Origin: a bacterium
GTDB lineage: Bacteria; Bdellovibrionota_C; UBA2361; SZUA-149; JAGRAN01
DNA length: 37,059 bases
Direction of reading: 5' to 3'
Assembly: GCA_030431555.1 (NCBI GenBank)
Contig: JAUIIP010000004.1
Location: 1-37,059, forward strand
In this document: positions 11,203-16,059 of the stretch, piece after piece
Position numbering within the stretch: the stretch's first letter is position 1
Layout of the letters: the number at the start of each line of letters is the position of its first letter
Translations under genes and position numbers: made by a program
The notes under the pieces: generated by a model
What the model saw: only the letters and a program-made list of their open reading frames with translations
The model's database searches: none
Told to the model about the DNA's origin: nothing

Positions 11203-11361
11203 ACAACAAATAGGCGATAGAAATAGTAGACAACTTGCGGTTGTTTCTTCTTAGTTTAACGATGAACAATACAGGCTAGCAACCTGAAAATTCGAGTGTT
11301 ATCTAGCTTTGACGGCTCAGCAAGCCAGCAATTCAGTCTGCTTTTTACAGAAACAATTATT
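11203..11361. promoter_or_regulatory. Divergent intergenic region between the gsp operon and the cupin gene
   Basis: These 159 bp separate gspC (minus) from the DUF985 gene (plus) and must hold the start signals of both. The DNA is AT-rich relative to the flanks. I could not fix a credible -35/-10 pair or operator by eye, so only the location is asserted. Confidence 0.4.
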
Positions 11362-11829
11362 ATGTCCGAAGAGAGAGTTCAGCAGCTGATAAGAGAACTG
11401 GAGCTTCAGCCTCACGTCGAAGGTGGGTATTACTCGGAGTACTATCGATCATCACAGCGAATTTCTGTCCCAGGCGGCAGCCGTACCTGTTCGACGGCAA
11501 TCTATTTTTTACTCTGGGGTGAGGCTGTATCAAAGTTTCACCGCTTGAATTCAGACGAAATTTGGCATTTTTACGAGGGCGCAGCCTTAAATCTTTACAC
11601 CCTCGGCCCAGCCGGCCTTACTTTGACGCGCCTAGGAAAGGACGCTTATCAAGCGGTGGTTCCGGCGGGGACCTGGCTGGCCGCCGAAATGTCTTCGCCG
11701 GATTCCTATGCTCTGGTCGGCTGCACTGTCGCACCGGGTTTCGAGTTCGAAGACTTCGAACTAGCTGACAAGGATCAACTTACAGCGGACTATCCCAGTC
11801 AGCGTGAACTTATTCAGCGCTTAACCTAG
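11362..11829 (+). CDS. DUF985 family cupin protein
   Basis: The 155-residue single-domain beta-barrel protein matches the DUF985/RmlC-like cupin family. It has the EGGYYSEYYRS signature near the N-terminus, the YFLLWGEAVSKFHRLNSDEIWHFYEG core with cupin-type His/Glu residues, and the VGCTVAPGFEFEDFEL ending. The ATG at 11362 begins MSEERVQQLIREL, where the family normally starts; a longer frame from 11296 adds an unrelated tail. The family's substrate is not established, so no reaction is proposed. It lies 44 bp before a DUF4184 gene on the same strand. Confidence 0.88.
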   Translation: MSEERVQQLIRELELQPHVEGGYYSEYYRSSQRISVPGGSRTCSTAIYFLLWGEAVSKFHRLNSDEIWHFYEGAALNLYTLGPAGLTLTRLGKDAYQAVVPAGTWLAAEMSSPDSYALVGCTVAPGFEFEDFELADKDQLTADYPSQRELIQRLT

Positions 11830-11873
11830 TGGACTTGCTCTCGCCGGTTTGATCGCTCAAAATTATTAGTGCG

Positions 11874-12641
11874 ATGCCATTTACTCTTTCGCATGTTGCT
11901 GCGGCCTTGCCGTTTCGCAGGTCTGCAATCCCGTTTTCTGCACTCGCTATCGGCTGCATGGCCCCGGACTTTGTCTACTTTTTTGACTTTGCTCCGGGTA
12001 ATCAGCAGTGGCATAACCTGCCTGCCTTATTCACGGGATGTCTGCCTGCCGGGCTGCTGATGTTGTTCCTCTACGAGTATTTGCTGAAGGTAGAGCTGAT
12101 AAAGCTGTTCCCGCACTGGCACGAAGTTCGGCTGGCACCGCTGGCTGCACCAAAGCCACTGACGCAAGCGAGCACGTTGTCTCTAGCTGCTTTGGGAATT
12201 CTTGTCGGAGCTTTTACTCATATTGTCTGGGACTCCTTCACTCACGGCTATGGTTGGTCGGTGAGTCGATTAACAATGCTCCAGACATATTTGCTGACAG
12301 TGCGCGAGTACGAAATTCATGTCCACAATCTTTTGCAGCATCTAAGCACATTCTTCGGAGCCGTAGTGCTCGCGGCGTACTACGGAGCTTGGATTGAAAA
12401 ACAGCCCGCAAGTGACTGCCGCTCGTTTTTCACCGAACGGCAGAAACTGCAGATAGTCGGCCTTTTATGGCTGTTTGCCTCTACTGCGGCCCTGACCCAA
12501 ACCTATGCTTCTTACTGGCTGCTTGCCCAACCGCCGATTCCATTTCGTGCGTTTGCCAGGTTCGTAGTCTCGACCGGTACCTATTTGTTTTTCGGGGTCC
12601 TAATTTACAGCATCGCCAGCCGCTTATGCGGTAAATCTTAA
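11874..12641 (+). CDS. DUF4184 family integral membrane protein
   Basis: The 255-residue protein opens MPFTLSHVAAALPFR and continues SALAIGCMAPDFVYFF, the hallmark of DUF4184. About five to six hydrophobic helices follow. A conserved His/Asp cluster (GAFTHIVWDSFTHGYGW) faces one side and might bind metal, but no activity is known for the family. It is probably cotranscribed with the cupin gene upstream. Its TAA overlaps the stop of the convergent minus-strand gene by 4 bp. Confidence 0.87.
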   Translation: MPFTLSHVAAALPFRRSAIPFSALAIGCMAPDFVYFFDFAPGNQQWHNLPALFTGCLPAGLLMLFLYEYLLKVELIKLFPHWHEVRLAPLAAPKPLTQASTLSLAALGILVGAFTHIVWDSFTHGYGWSVSRLTMLQTYLLTVREYEIHVHNLLQHLSTFFGAVVLAAYYGAWIEKQPASDCRSFFTERQKLQIVGLLWLFASTAALTQTYASYWLLAQPPIPFRAFARFVVSTGTYLFFGVLIYSIASRLCGKS

Positions 12642-13033
12642 GGCTTGTTCCTTGCCAGGTAGTCGGCGATCATTCCGGCTGCTGCGGCCTGGGCCAATTG
12701 GTCAGCAAAGAATTCGTCGGCATCTGCAGTGAACTGTTTGGATAGCCCTGAGCTGTTAGAGAGTTCGACGCGAAGCACACCATCTTGCTTCTCGCAGCTA
12801 AGTGCTGTGGTGCCCGAGGCGGTGCTGGGTGTCAGCCAGGAAACGACAATGTCCGCCTCGGTGTCTTCGGCGACTAGCTTTGCGCCTAAGGCCAAAAGAT
12901 AGCTGCTAAGAATTTCGCAATCAGCAGGGACAGCAACTTTGAGCGCGCAAATTTGCTCCTGAGCTTCAGCCGACCAATCGCTTAAAATAAGCTGTCTGGC
13001 GAAGGTTTCTATTTGTTCTCTGCCGAGACTCAT
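12638..13033 (-). CDS. Degenerate E1/ThiF-like small subunit (N-terminal helix plus Rossmann remnant)
   Basis: The 131-residue protein is not a recognised family as a whole. Its start, IETFARQLILSDWSAEAQEQICALKVAV, resembles the N-terminus of ThiF/MoeB E1 enzymes (RYSRQILLPE...GQ..L..A.VLVVG), including the Arg that in MoeB-like dimers reaches the partner's ATP site. The glycine-rich nucleotide loop is replaced by PADCEILSSYLLALGAKLV, so it should not bind ATP itself. The upstream E1 gene lacks exactly this N-terminal segment, and its stop overlaps this ATG by 4 bp. I infer that the two form a heterodimer. The alternative is a diverged standalone remnant without function. Confidence 0.7.
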   Translation of the reverse strand: MSLGREQIETFARQLILSDWSAEAQEQICALKVAVPADCEILSSYLLALGAKLVAEDTEADIVVSWLTPSTASGTTALSCEKQDGVLRVELSNSSGLSKQFTADADEFFADQLAQAAAAGMIADYLARNKP

Positions 13034-13941
13034 GAACTGCGCCTCTCAATTACCAGTTCCCAGCGCTCGGCCTCAGGGATTGCGGCCGCAAGTTCTACCG
13101 CGTGTCCTTCTTTGCTGCAGGACTCACTGACTTCGTCGCAGGACTTCTGATTGCCGAACTGAACCCGAAGTTTTGCGCCGGGAGGGATTTTCTCCAGTGC
13201 AAGTTTCGTATGCAGGAATGTCATCGGGCAGGTTTCTTTCTTGAGATCCAAAACTGCGTCTTCCACCTGTGCGCAGACCGGACAGTCAGCGGCAGGGGGG
13301 ACAGAGCTGCTGCGCACTTGCTGCATGCCGATTTCGAATCGCCTCAGAATACTTGACGGCTGAATAGTCGACCCGGACAGGTATTCCAGCGCCGCACGTG
13401 CCTGAAGAATGCCGATTACTCCCGCCGCTGCGCCAACGATTCCCTGCTGCTGGCAAGCTGCACCAAGCTGCTGAATGTCATCTTCGCTAAACGAGCCGAA
13501 AAGACAGCGTACACATCCTCCGGACTTCGGATTATGAACTGCGAGGGCCATTCCGCCCCAGCCGGTGACGCCGCCGTAAGAAAAGGGAATTCTGTTGCGA
13601 ATACAGAAGTCATTAATTGCTAGCTTAGCGTCGACCGAGTCTGTGCCGTCGATAACGTAGTCGGAGCCGCTCAGCAGCGCCGAGACATTCTCAGAGCTAA
13701 GCTTCTCGCTAGTGCTCTCAACTTCGAGTGGAGCCAAGCGCTCGGTTGCGGCCTCAACTTTGAAGCGGCCGACATCTGCTAAAGAGAAAAGAATTTGTCG
13801 ATTGAGGTTCGAGCGCTCAACCCTGTCGGGGTCGATTAGCCGCAAGGCAATAGGGTGATCGGATAGCGAGGCTTTGGCCAGGCAGATCGCTGCCGGACAA
13901 CCAAGACCACCCACGCCTACAATTGTGATTAATCGAGCCAT
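13030..13941 (-). CDS. ThiF/MoeB/HesA-family E1-like adenylyltransferase fused to a TusA-like domain
   Basis: The 303-residue protein has an N-terminal adenylating Rossmann domain: GVGGLGCP nucleotide loop, DPDRVERSNLNRQ, the DGTDS aspartate, and Cys pairs CVRC and CPVC for a structural zinc. A Cys sits in the crossover-loop position (AACQQQGIVG). Residues from about 230 form a TusA-like domain with the sulfur-carrying motif ETCPMTFLHTKLALE, Cys about 238. E1 enzymes activate the C-terminal Gly-Gly of ThiS/MoaD-like proteins for thiocarboxylate formation, and TusA passes persulfide sulfur. No ThiS/MoaD partner gene is in the window. The usual N-terminal 20-25 residues are absent. The ATG is fixed because an in-frame stop lies 12 bp upstream. 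No Shine-Dalgarno is visible. Confidence 0.88.
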   Translation of the reverse strand: MARLITIVGVGGLGCPAAICLAKASLSDHPIALRLIDPDRVERSNLNRQILFSLADVGRFKVEAATERLAPLEVESTSEKLSSENVSALLSGSDYVIDGTDSVDAKLAINDFCIRNRIPFSYGGVTGWGGMALAVHNPKSGGCVRCLFGSFSEDDIQQLGAACQQQGIVGAAAGVIGILQARAALEYLSGSTIQPSSILRRFEIGMQQVRSSSVPPAADCPVCAQVEDAVLDLKKETCPMTFLHTKLALEKIPPGAKLRVQFGNQKSCDEVSESCSKEGHAVELAAAIPEAERWELVIERRSS

Positions 13942-14082: not shown

Positions 14083-14586
14083 CTACAGGTTGTTGCTTGC
14101 CTGCGACGAAGTCGAGGAAGTCATCCCAGTAGTAGCTGACGATGCGGCTGAGTTAATTGCATCAGCGTCAGCATCAGAAATACCGAGCTCTTTCGCACGC
14201 TGACAAAGATTTGCCAGTGAAACGCCGCGAAGCGTCGAGTGAAAGGAACCTTCGATTTCAGACCAGACTGTGTCGATCAATTCCGCGAGCGCGGGAGCAT
14301 CAGTGCGGTTGTCTTCTTGAAGACGCGGGCGAAGAGCTCGCATTACTTCTTCGAGACGAATGTCTGATGGGTCCTTAGCGAGGGAATAACCACCGCGAGG
14401 TCCACGCTTACCAATTACTACGTTCGCCTGACGGAGTTTAGCGAAAATCTGCTCGAGAAATCGCTGAGGAATTCTCTGTCGCTTTGCGATCTGCCGTACC
14501 TGGGCAGGTCCACCGTTCAAGTTATAGGCGAGGTCAACGAGAGCCATAATCCCGTATTGCTCTTCTCTAGAAAGCTTAACTGCCAT
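14083..14586 (-). CDS. Rrf2-family transcriptional regulator (CymR-like, without the IscR cysteine triad)
   Basis: The 167-residue protein has the Rrf2 winged helix: MAVKLSREEQYGIMALVDLA, VRQIAKRQRIPQRFLEQIFAKLRQANVVIGKRGPRGGYSLA. The three Fe-S-ligating cysteines of IscR/NsrR are absent; the only Cys is near residue 130, in ANLCQRAKELG. This is closer to CymR, which controls sulfur metabolism with a protein partner. The last ~30 residues are a Ser/Ala/Thr-rich tail. It is the nearest upstream gene to the E1-TusA pair, so sulfur-linked regulation of that pair is a reasonable inference. Confidence 0.88.
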   Translation of the reverse strand: MAVKLSREEQYGIMALVDLAYNLNGGPAQVRQIAKRQRIPQRFLEQIFAKLRQANVVIGKRGPRGGYSLAKDPSDIRLEEVMRALRPRLQEDNRTDAPALAELIDTVWSEIEGSFHSTLRGVSLANLCQRAKELGISDADADAINSAASSATTGMTSSTSSQASNNL

Positions 14587-14841: not shown

Positions 14842-16059
14842 CTAGCGCTCAACGATCAGCAGCAAACGGTTCGGCCGGTCTAGCGAAAGCAAAGTCGCCT
14901 CCCTGGAGCCAATGCCCGTAGCTTGAAGCTCAATTGCGGCTTGCCCAGCGCTCAGGCTCTCCAGTGCACGGAAATCCACACCACCGATGGTGCAGCTTGT
15001 TGAGTTCGTCGGACGGACTTTAGACGCCGCGGTGGAGGACGTTGCTGCCCCGCTTACCGAAGCGTCGCTGCGGATTAAGTTTCCGGCATTTAGCTGCTCG
15101 CGGACACTGACTACGAACGCTAAGCCGTCGCCGAATTCTTCACAGGAACTGCTGCGAATTAGTCCCGGAGGCTGTGAGGGCTCCTTTGCCTGCACCTCGC
15201 TGCTGTCCGAAAAGTCCGCGTTCATCTTCAGCTGGGCGCGGGCTGTAGTCTCAGGCAGTTCTGCAAGCAACAGACTCGGCGCATCGGGAATTGGTGAATC
15301 GGCCATCGCGACTTTTAGCGGCAGGCGGCGATATTCCCTCCGGACTCTTCTAGGGATCTCGTCGTATTCTTCCTCGAAGAAGCGTGCAAATTTCTCCCGC
15401 ACATCTTTCGCGGCATTGCTTAGCGGATACTTCTCTTCGATGGTGCGGATTCTAGCTAGAGCAGAGTCATACTCTCCAATCTTCAAATAGAAAGCAGCGA
15501 CAGCCGCTTCGTGCTCGACTATTTCGTTCTCGGCTTCGGCCAGCCTGGCCTTAGCGCGCTCTGCGTATTCGCTTTCGGGAAACTCGCTAATGACCTTTCT
15601 AAACTCCTGGATAGCTGTCAGCAGTGGTCCCTGGTCGTGCAGCTCGTCTTTGTACTGCATCCAATGCGAGTTAGCGATTTGGTAGTAAACGTAGGGCAGG
15701 GCACTGTGTCCGCGGTGAAGGCGGATGAACTCCTCGTAAGCAACCAGAGCTTCACTGAAGTTGCGGCTGTAGAAGTGACAATCCGCAGATTTTATTTCGG
15801 CCAGGGTTCCGTAATACCCGGTGGGATAGCTATCTCTTAGCTCGCGCCAGGCTTCGCCTGAGATCGTATACAAGCCTCGGTCATAACTCTCGACGGCCTT
15901 CGTTAGTAAAATAAGCTCCGGTGCCGCAGCGACTTCGATGATGTGATGCGGTTTTGGTTCTTCTTCTGCTGAGCAGCCGAACAAAACAGCGCTAATTGCT
16001 GCCGCCGATAACAGACGAGCTGAACAAATAACAATCGACTTTAAAGGCATATACTTCAC
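14842..16059 (-). CDS. BamD-like outer-membrane lipoprotein with TPR repeats and a C-terminal extension
   Basis: The 405-residue protein has a lipoprotein signal peptide ending at a lipobox (VLFGC, Cys at about residue 29). TPR-type helical hairpins follow at about 45-235: YGTLAEIKSADCHFYSRNFSEALVAYEEFIRLHRGH, YVYYQIANSHW, ECAR-like SEYAERAKARLAEAENEI, and FYLKIGEYDSALARI. This matches BamD, which works with BamA in inserting outer-membrane proteins. BamD is about 240-280 residues, so the last ~165 residues are additional. They are low-complexity, then a short beta-rich end (LLSLDRPNRLLLIVER). It starts 3 bp after the lpxD stop. Confidence 0.82.
   Translation of the reverse strand: MKYMPLKSIVICSARLLSAAAISAVLFGCSAEEEPKPHHIIEVAAAPELILLTKAVESYDRGLYTISGEAWRELRDSYPTGYYGTLAEIKSADCHFYSRNFSEALVAYEEFIRLHRGHSALPYVYYQIANSHWMQYKDELHDQGPLLTAIQEFRKVISEFPESEYAERAKARLAEAENEIVEHEAAVAAFYLKIGEYDSALARIRTIEEKYPLSNAAKDVREKFARFFEEEYDEIPRRVRREYRRLPLKVAMADSPIPDAPSLLLAELPETTARAQLKMNADFSDSSEVQAKEPSQPPGLIRSSSCEEFGDGLAFVVSVREQLNAGNLIRSDASVSGAATSSTAASKVRPTNSTSCTIGGVDFRALESLSAGQAAIELQATGIGSREATLLSLDRPNRLLLIVER

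Follow-up and report, generated by a model that had tools for sequence, protein, structure and literature searches.

A conserved two-gene E1 with a fused TusA domain, a candidate ThiF variant of an uncultivated bacterial lineage

The stretch of DNA analysed here (hereafter designated the window; 37,059 nucleotides) carries, on its minus strand, two overlapping genes related to the E1-type adenylating enzymes. The first (13030–13941) encodes a 303-residue ThiF/MoeB-type protein lacking the N-terminal arginine helix and bearing a C-terminal TusA domain, and the second (12638–13033), which overlaps it through the tetranucleotide ATGA, encodes a 131-residue protein that appears to be a degenerate pseudo-E1 and would form the small subunit of a two-gene enzyme (hereafter, the small protein and the split E1). 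Directly upstream of the E1 gene lies an Rrf2/IscR-type regulator (14083–14586, minus strand), which is almost unchanged across families where the adjoining E1 drops to about 40% identity. On the other side, a cupin_5 gene and a DUF4184/zinc phospholipase C-like gene (11296–12641), the latter with a convergent end and a 4-bp overlap, separate the small gene from gspC in the window, unlike in its relatives, where gspC directly follows the small gene. The window also contains a BamD/YfiO-like lipoprotein gene (14842–16059), the product of which has a long extra C-terminal region with a terminal 'LDRPNRL' motif common to the relatives.

Enzymes of the ThiF/MoeB type normally function as homodimers, in which the active site of either subunit receives an arginine from the other. 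The E1 protein of the window belongs to this family by its Pfam match (PF00899; 162.6 bits, curated cut-off 28.1), which covers residues 5–221 and enters the profile at position 23 of 238; its score against the ThiF equivalog TIGR02356 (139.6 bits) falls below the cut-off of 275.25. The N-terminus, MARLITIVGVGGLG, brings the intact nucleotide loop GVGGLG (residues 9–14; 13900–13917, minus strand) immediately after the start, and the N-terminal arginine helix found in the same chain of ThiF/MoeB proteins is absent. An in-frame stop is situated five codons 5' of the ATG, the frame reading ...HLLRN*AFSFMARLITIVGVGGLG (asterisk, stop codon). This stop and the late entry into the ThiF profile bear out the claim of the preliminary description of this DNA that the E1 starts at its nucleotide loop with no preceding helix. 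A missed upstream start or a frameshift was excluded by the same stop, together with the absence of the helix from every upstream frame in every relative. In a low-GC relative (G005; L006:1444-2391), the split E1 has no ATG, GTG, or TTG before the nucleotide loop and an AAGGA-like site precedes an ATA, which suggests a non-standard start codon.

The missing helix was found in the downstream gene. The small protein begins with MSLGREQIETFARQLILSDWSAEAQEQ and contains E1-type N-terminal helices at residues 5–30 (REQIETFARQLILSDWSAEAQEQICA; 12944–13021, minus strand), including Arg13 (12995–12997, minus strand), which is invariant and aligned with Arg14 of MoeB and Arg11 of ThiF. At the position where E1s have VGxGGLG, it reads VAVPADCE (12914–12937, minus strand), and the GxGGxG loop is replaced in every member of the small-protein family. 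As a single sequence, the small protein gave nothing significant against Pfam, NCBIfam, or the PDB. The profile of the small proteins, compared with that of full-length E1s, gave an alignment with E=1.7e-13 and a probability of 98%, running from the N-terminal helices through the first strand and helix into the region of the second strand; a permissive setting extended the match to a C-terminal helix, an extension carrying no statistical weight. The small proteins range from 131 to 196 residues across lineages and are poorly conserved in their C-terminal half; relatives of 158–196 residues retain the first strand-helix-strand unit, and their C-terminal helix can be aligned, though weakly, to a helix late in the E1s. 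No alignment was obtained between the small proteins and their helix-less E1 partner.

Furthermore, a helix HMM was trained on full-length E1s from the phylum together with E. coli ThiF and MoeB only, with the small proteins excluded. When it was used to score the 1,761 six-frame ORFs of the loci, ranks 1–10 were all small genes (ten loci in eight genomes) and nothing scored upstream of any E1. Over 46 genomes of the class, the small-protein profile matched nothing but small genes and, in full-length E1s, the N-terminus. A chance similarity of the small protein was excluded by the profile comparison and the helix HMM ranking. These sequence comparisons support the interpretation of the small protein as a decayed E1 that has kept the arginine helix and lost the ATP loop, and both corresponding claims of the preliminary description, that the gene overlapping the E1 by 4 bp carries the missing helix and that its own nucleotide loop is gone, held. 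At 131 residues, the small protein of the window may be too short to stand in for a complete E1 half.

The catalytic chain is otherwise complete. All seven split E1s examined keep the equivalents of MoeB G41, D62, D64, N70, R73, Q74, K86, and D130, as well as C172, C175, C187, and C244; C247 is kept in six of the seven, and one of the four zinc cysteines is a serine in the split E1 of G011. The sole active-site residue absent from the split E1s is the arginine contributed by the other subunit (MoeB Arg14, ThiF Arg11); R29 of the G011 protein, which aligns at this column, lies ahead of a probable later start, in N-terminal sequence that is itself doubtful. The small proteins, in turn, have Arg13, Gln14, Leu15, and Gln25 as invariant residues, with Arg13, Gln14, and Gln25 among the few such positions of an otherwise fast-evolving protein. 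In human UBA1, Arg57 is found with Arg515 at the pyrophosphate site (PMC12355090).

The TusA domain of the E1 protein (PF01206; 51.3 bits, cut-off 28.6) occupies residues 230–300 (13042–13254, minus strand). It retains the Cys and the first Pro of the TusA motif CPxP, the second Pro being replaced (CPMT), and this Cys238 (13228–13230, minus strand) is conserved in all six fully read TusA-bearing copies; the split E1 of G007 has no TusA domain. The fused domain is the only TusA match in five genomes, that of the window (G000) and G001, G003, G005, and G011. Proteins of the SirA/TusA type have been proposed as rhodanese stand-ins in E1 operons (PMC1779556), and no ThiF-TusA fusion was found in a limited collection of papers.

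The E1 gene followed by the small gene was found in 8 of the 15 genomes of the order (G000, G001, G002, G003, G005, G007, G011, and G013), spanning five of its ten families; the contig of G013 covers the E1 only at its TusA end, and a ninth genome, G014, shows an E1 start at a contig end. In every member, the two are separate genes that overlap or lie almost end to end, the extremes being 16 bp of overlap in G007 and ~21 bp of intervening DNA in G003. The split E1s form one clade relative to the full-length E1s (support 100/99), which by this tree is monophyletic. The order regulator, E1, small gene is constant in all split-E1 genomes with the DNA present, mostly continuing into gspC-gspD. Thus, the adjacency that the preliminary description had proposed to seek in other genomes exists in seven genomes besides that of the window, and an E1 of this family without the neighbour, which it had named as evidence against the pairing, was not encountered in genomes with downstream DNA present. 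The named relatives among public sequences come from MAGs whose labels read Bdellovibrionales (HKST-UBA19), Pseudomonadota, or unclassified bacterium; the whole-collection scan for them used two short peptide patterns, and the spread beyond these may be wider.

Between the window and G001, dN was 0.27 for the small gene (first 32 aligned codons) and 0.26 for the E1 gene, with dS saturated; thus, the small gene appears to be constrained to the same order as the E1 gene. The small gene of G001 (L002:60-120) has an in-frame TAA six codons in, before the arginine helix, and its later codons look constrained. This TAA sits within about 100 bases of the contig end and may equally reflect an assembly error, an unusual start, or a genuine interruption.

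As for the function, the split E1 occurs together with thiazole synthase. Among 46 genomes of the class, 16 have a bona fide ThiG, of which nine have the split E1 (one of them represented only by an E1 start where a contig ends) and the other seven a full-length E1-rhodanese, which in several cases lies just a few kb from thiG on one contig; none of the ThiG-less genomes among these 46 has the split E1. The hypergeometric probability of the 9/9 overlap is 1e-5 over genomes and 0.011 over families, both counting related genomes as independent, so that the association is weaker than these values. Each split-E1 genome has one ThiS, the only carrier over the ThiS/MoaD family cut-off, and its gene lies with trxA and thiG in a cluster that in most cases includes thiE and lacks thiF. 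This trxA-thiS-thiG(-thiE) cluster (L124, L122-L130) is conserved in the taxonomic order, with thioredoxin directly beside thiS. The split-E1 pair sits outside the thi operon, and no TPP riboswitch was detected in the window, in five related E1 loci, or in eight thi loci.

A single PF00899 match was found in G000, G005, and G007, and neither G005 nor G007 (96% complete) has any ThiF-family gene besides the split E1. G001 and G003 encode a full-length E1-rhodanese as well as the split E1, which makes the assignment as ThiF weaker there. The second ThiF-family genes of G002 and G011 were rejected as ThiF by their appearance, one being TcdA-like and one adjoining a radical-SAM-type gene. The E1-like protein of G011 (L039:293-1105) lies beside a B12-binding-type radical SAM gene and has a degenerate SNLxRQ motif (PDINRQ). 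Since ThiS is the sole carrier over the cut-off, no thiF is beside thiS, and no other ThiF-family gene exists in G005 and G007, the split E1 is the best candidate for ThiF in its genomes.

In structure models, the E1 protein (pLDDT 85) gave ThiF of the ThiS-ThiF complex (1zud) as the best fold match, with E=3e-20 and an rmsd of 2.5. For the small protein, the AlphaFold model had a modest pLDDT of 66.7, and its matches to the folds of MoeB, ThiF, Uba4, and SAE1 were weak (best E 0.008); among eukaryotic heterodimeric E1s, it matched the inactive subunits SAE1 and APPBP1, weakly and consistently. These fold matches to E1s are supportive only.

Collectively, the gene-level evidence makes a conserved, two-gene, TusA-fused variant of ThiF a well supported interpretation. 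Our preferred reading, to which we assign a probability of about two in three, is that the two genes encode one heteromeric ThiF, with a catalytic subunit, a pseudo-E1 as arginine donor, and TusA in place of rhodanese. The physical complex, the catalysis by an arginine in trans, ThiS as the substrate, and the route of sulfur are what we infer from these data, and the heterodimer and the trans-arginine mechanism are to be taken as predictions. In the proposed mechanism, the 303-residue protein, as the sole catalytic half, would bind ATP and the sulfur carrier ThiS and adenylate the C-terminal Gly-Gly of ThiS. The 131-residue degenerate E1, which presumably binds no ATP, would sit in the position of the dimer partner and place its Arg13 on the phosphates in the pocket of the catalytic half, reproducing the arginine exchange between the halves of a ThiF, MoeB, or Uba4 homodimer. 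The fused TusA domain would then take persulfide sulfur from a cysteine desulfurase and pass it to ThiS-AMP, a role that rhodanese domains fill in the related E1s of full length, and the ThiS-thiocarboxylate produced would be delivered to the thiazole synthase ThiG. The overall interpretation of the preliminary description is thereby kept in its active/inactive logic, with the obligate heterodimer that it proposed staying a prediction, and extended in function, for which it had missed the TusA fusion and the link to ThiS/ThiG.

The stoichiometry may differ from that of a heterodimer. The shortness of the small protein (131 residues in the window), its poorly conserved C-terminal half, and a best-supported homology confined mainly to the helix and the first Rossmann units would also suit a 2:2 fragment complementation, in which two small proteins dock onto a homodimeric E1 core, each bringing an arginine helix and using the remainder as a docking tail. 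We regard this arrangement as rather unlikely, however, because the relatives of 158–196 residues keep the strand-helix-strand unit and a weakly aligned C-terminal helix, as in a shrunken E1. A further alternative assigns to the small protein only a stabilising or regulatory role, the catalytic half being active without the trans arginine. The inactive subunit APPBP1 of the NEDD8 E1 has been reported to accelerate rather than enable activation (PMC6031683), but the invariance of Arg13, Gln14, and Gln25 in a protein that otherwise evolves fast argues against such a role, which we consider improbable. Least of all do we expect the small gene to be a functionless decaying remnant or a chance frame: the TAA before the helix in G001 would fit such decay, whereas conservation across five families and a dN close to that of the E1 gene over saturated silent sites speak against it.

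The split E1 might also be real and act on something other than ThiS, that is, another carrier or a small molecule, perhaps in Fe-S or cysteine metabolism under the Rrf2 regulator. This regulator always adjoins the pair, the pair lies outside the thi operon, and TusA-type (SirA) proteins stand alongside E1s in sulfur-assimilation operons (PMC1779556). Against this substrate assignment, which seems to us doubtful, there is only one carrier of the ThiS/MoaD family over the cut-off in each genome, no JAB protease was found in the order (its absence also argues against a conjugation role for the split E1), and the co-occurrence with ThiG is strict and complementary to that of the full-length E1-rhodanese. 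If the heteromeric ThiF is correct, it fills the apparent gap in the vitamin B1 pathway of this uncultivated lineage left by a thi operon without thiF, and TusA has taken over the role of rhodanese within one polypeptide.

Eukaryotic E1s are thought to derive from a MoeB/ThiF-like homodimer, one half of which decayed to a structural partner; SAE1/UBA2 and NAE1/UBA3, which activate SUMO and NEDD8 in human cells, are two-part enzymes of this kind. Should the heteromeric reading hold, a bacterial ThiF would have taken the same step independently, providing a natural experiment on that transition in which sister lineages show the small subunit decayed to different degrees (131 to 196 residues), and a minimal system for asking what the inactive half of an E1 does.

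The split E1 shares with E. coli ThiF and MoeB (PF00899) the fold, the catalytic residues of its own chain, the CxxC...CxxC zinc motif, and the crossover cysteine, and a ThiS is encoded in the same genome. Unlike these homodimers, which carry the arginine helix in the same chain, it has the helix in a second gene, the product of which has no ATP loop, and its catalytic chain bears a TusA domain. A sulfur-transfer domain at the C-terminus of the E1 is a feature in common with Uba4/MOCS3 and the bacterial E1-rhodanese proteins, and Uba4 uses Arg18 of the second subunit; these are, however, homodimers with rhodanese and a same-chain helix, as opposed to TusA and a helix from the second gene. The sulfur-assimilation operons of E1 and SirA/TusA (PMC1779556, row 4e) similarly have a rhodanese-less E1 working with a TusA-type protein, but those operons encode TusA on its own and include a JAB protease. 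BilD, the bacterial E1 of the Bil operon (8tyz), contains one inactive and one active adenylation domain in one chain (PMC11354881); the split E1 does not combine both in one chain, and differs from BilD, which has a Cys domain and serves ubiquitin-like conjugation, in its two genes and TusA. The limited collection of papers contained no two-gene bacterial E1 that acts on a sulfur carrier.

The closest parallel in architecture is with the eukaryotic SAE1/UBA2 and NAE1/UBA3, in which the active half likewise starts at the nucleotide loop and the N-terminal helices are kept by the inactive one; alignments to the window E1 start at residue 20 of UBA2 (SAE2), 38 of SAE1, and 31–34 of ThiF and MoeB. 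Unlike them, the split E1 lacks the catalytic-Cys insert and the ubiquitin-fold domain (303 residues, ThiF and TusA only), its inactive half is reduced to 131–196 residues, and its likely role is sulfur transfer instead of conjugation. By sequence it is placed outside the SAE1/UBA2 group with a working logic that looks alike, and the comparison with Aos1/Uba2 drawn in the preliminary description gains from the five-family conservation, the profile comparison, and the residue mapping. On balance, we lean slightly toward the wider view that a two-gene E1 arose independently in bacteria, pairing an active half with a minimal ATP-dead half that mainly hands one arginine across, and was coupled to a fused TusA as the built-in sulfur donor for thiamine synthesis, which would make it a convergent and simpler counterpart of SAE1/UBA2.
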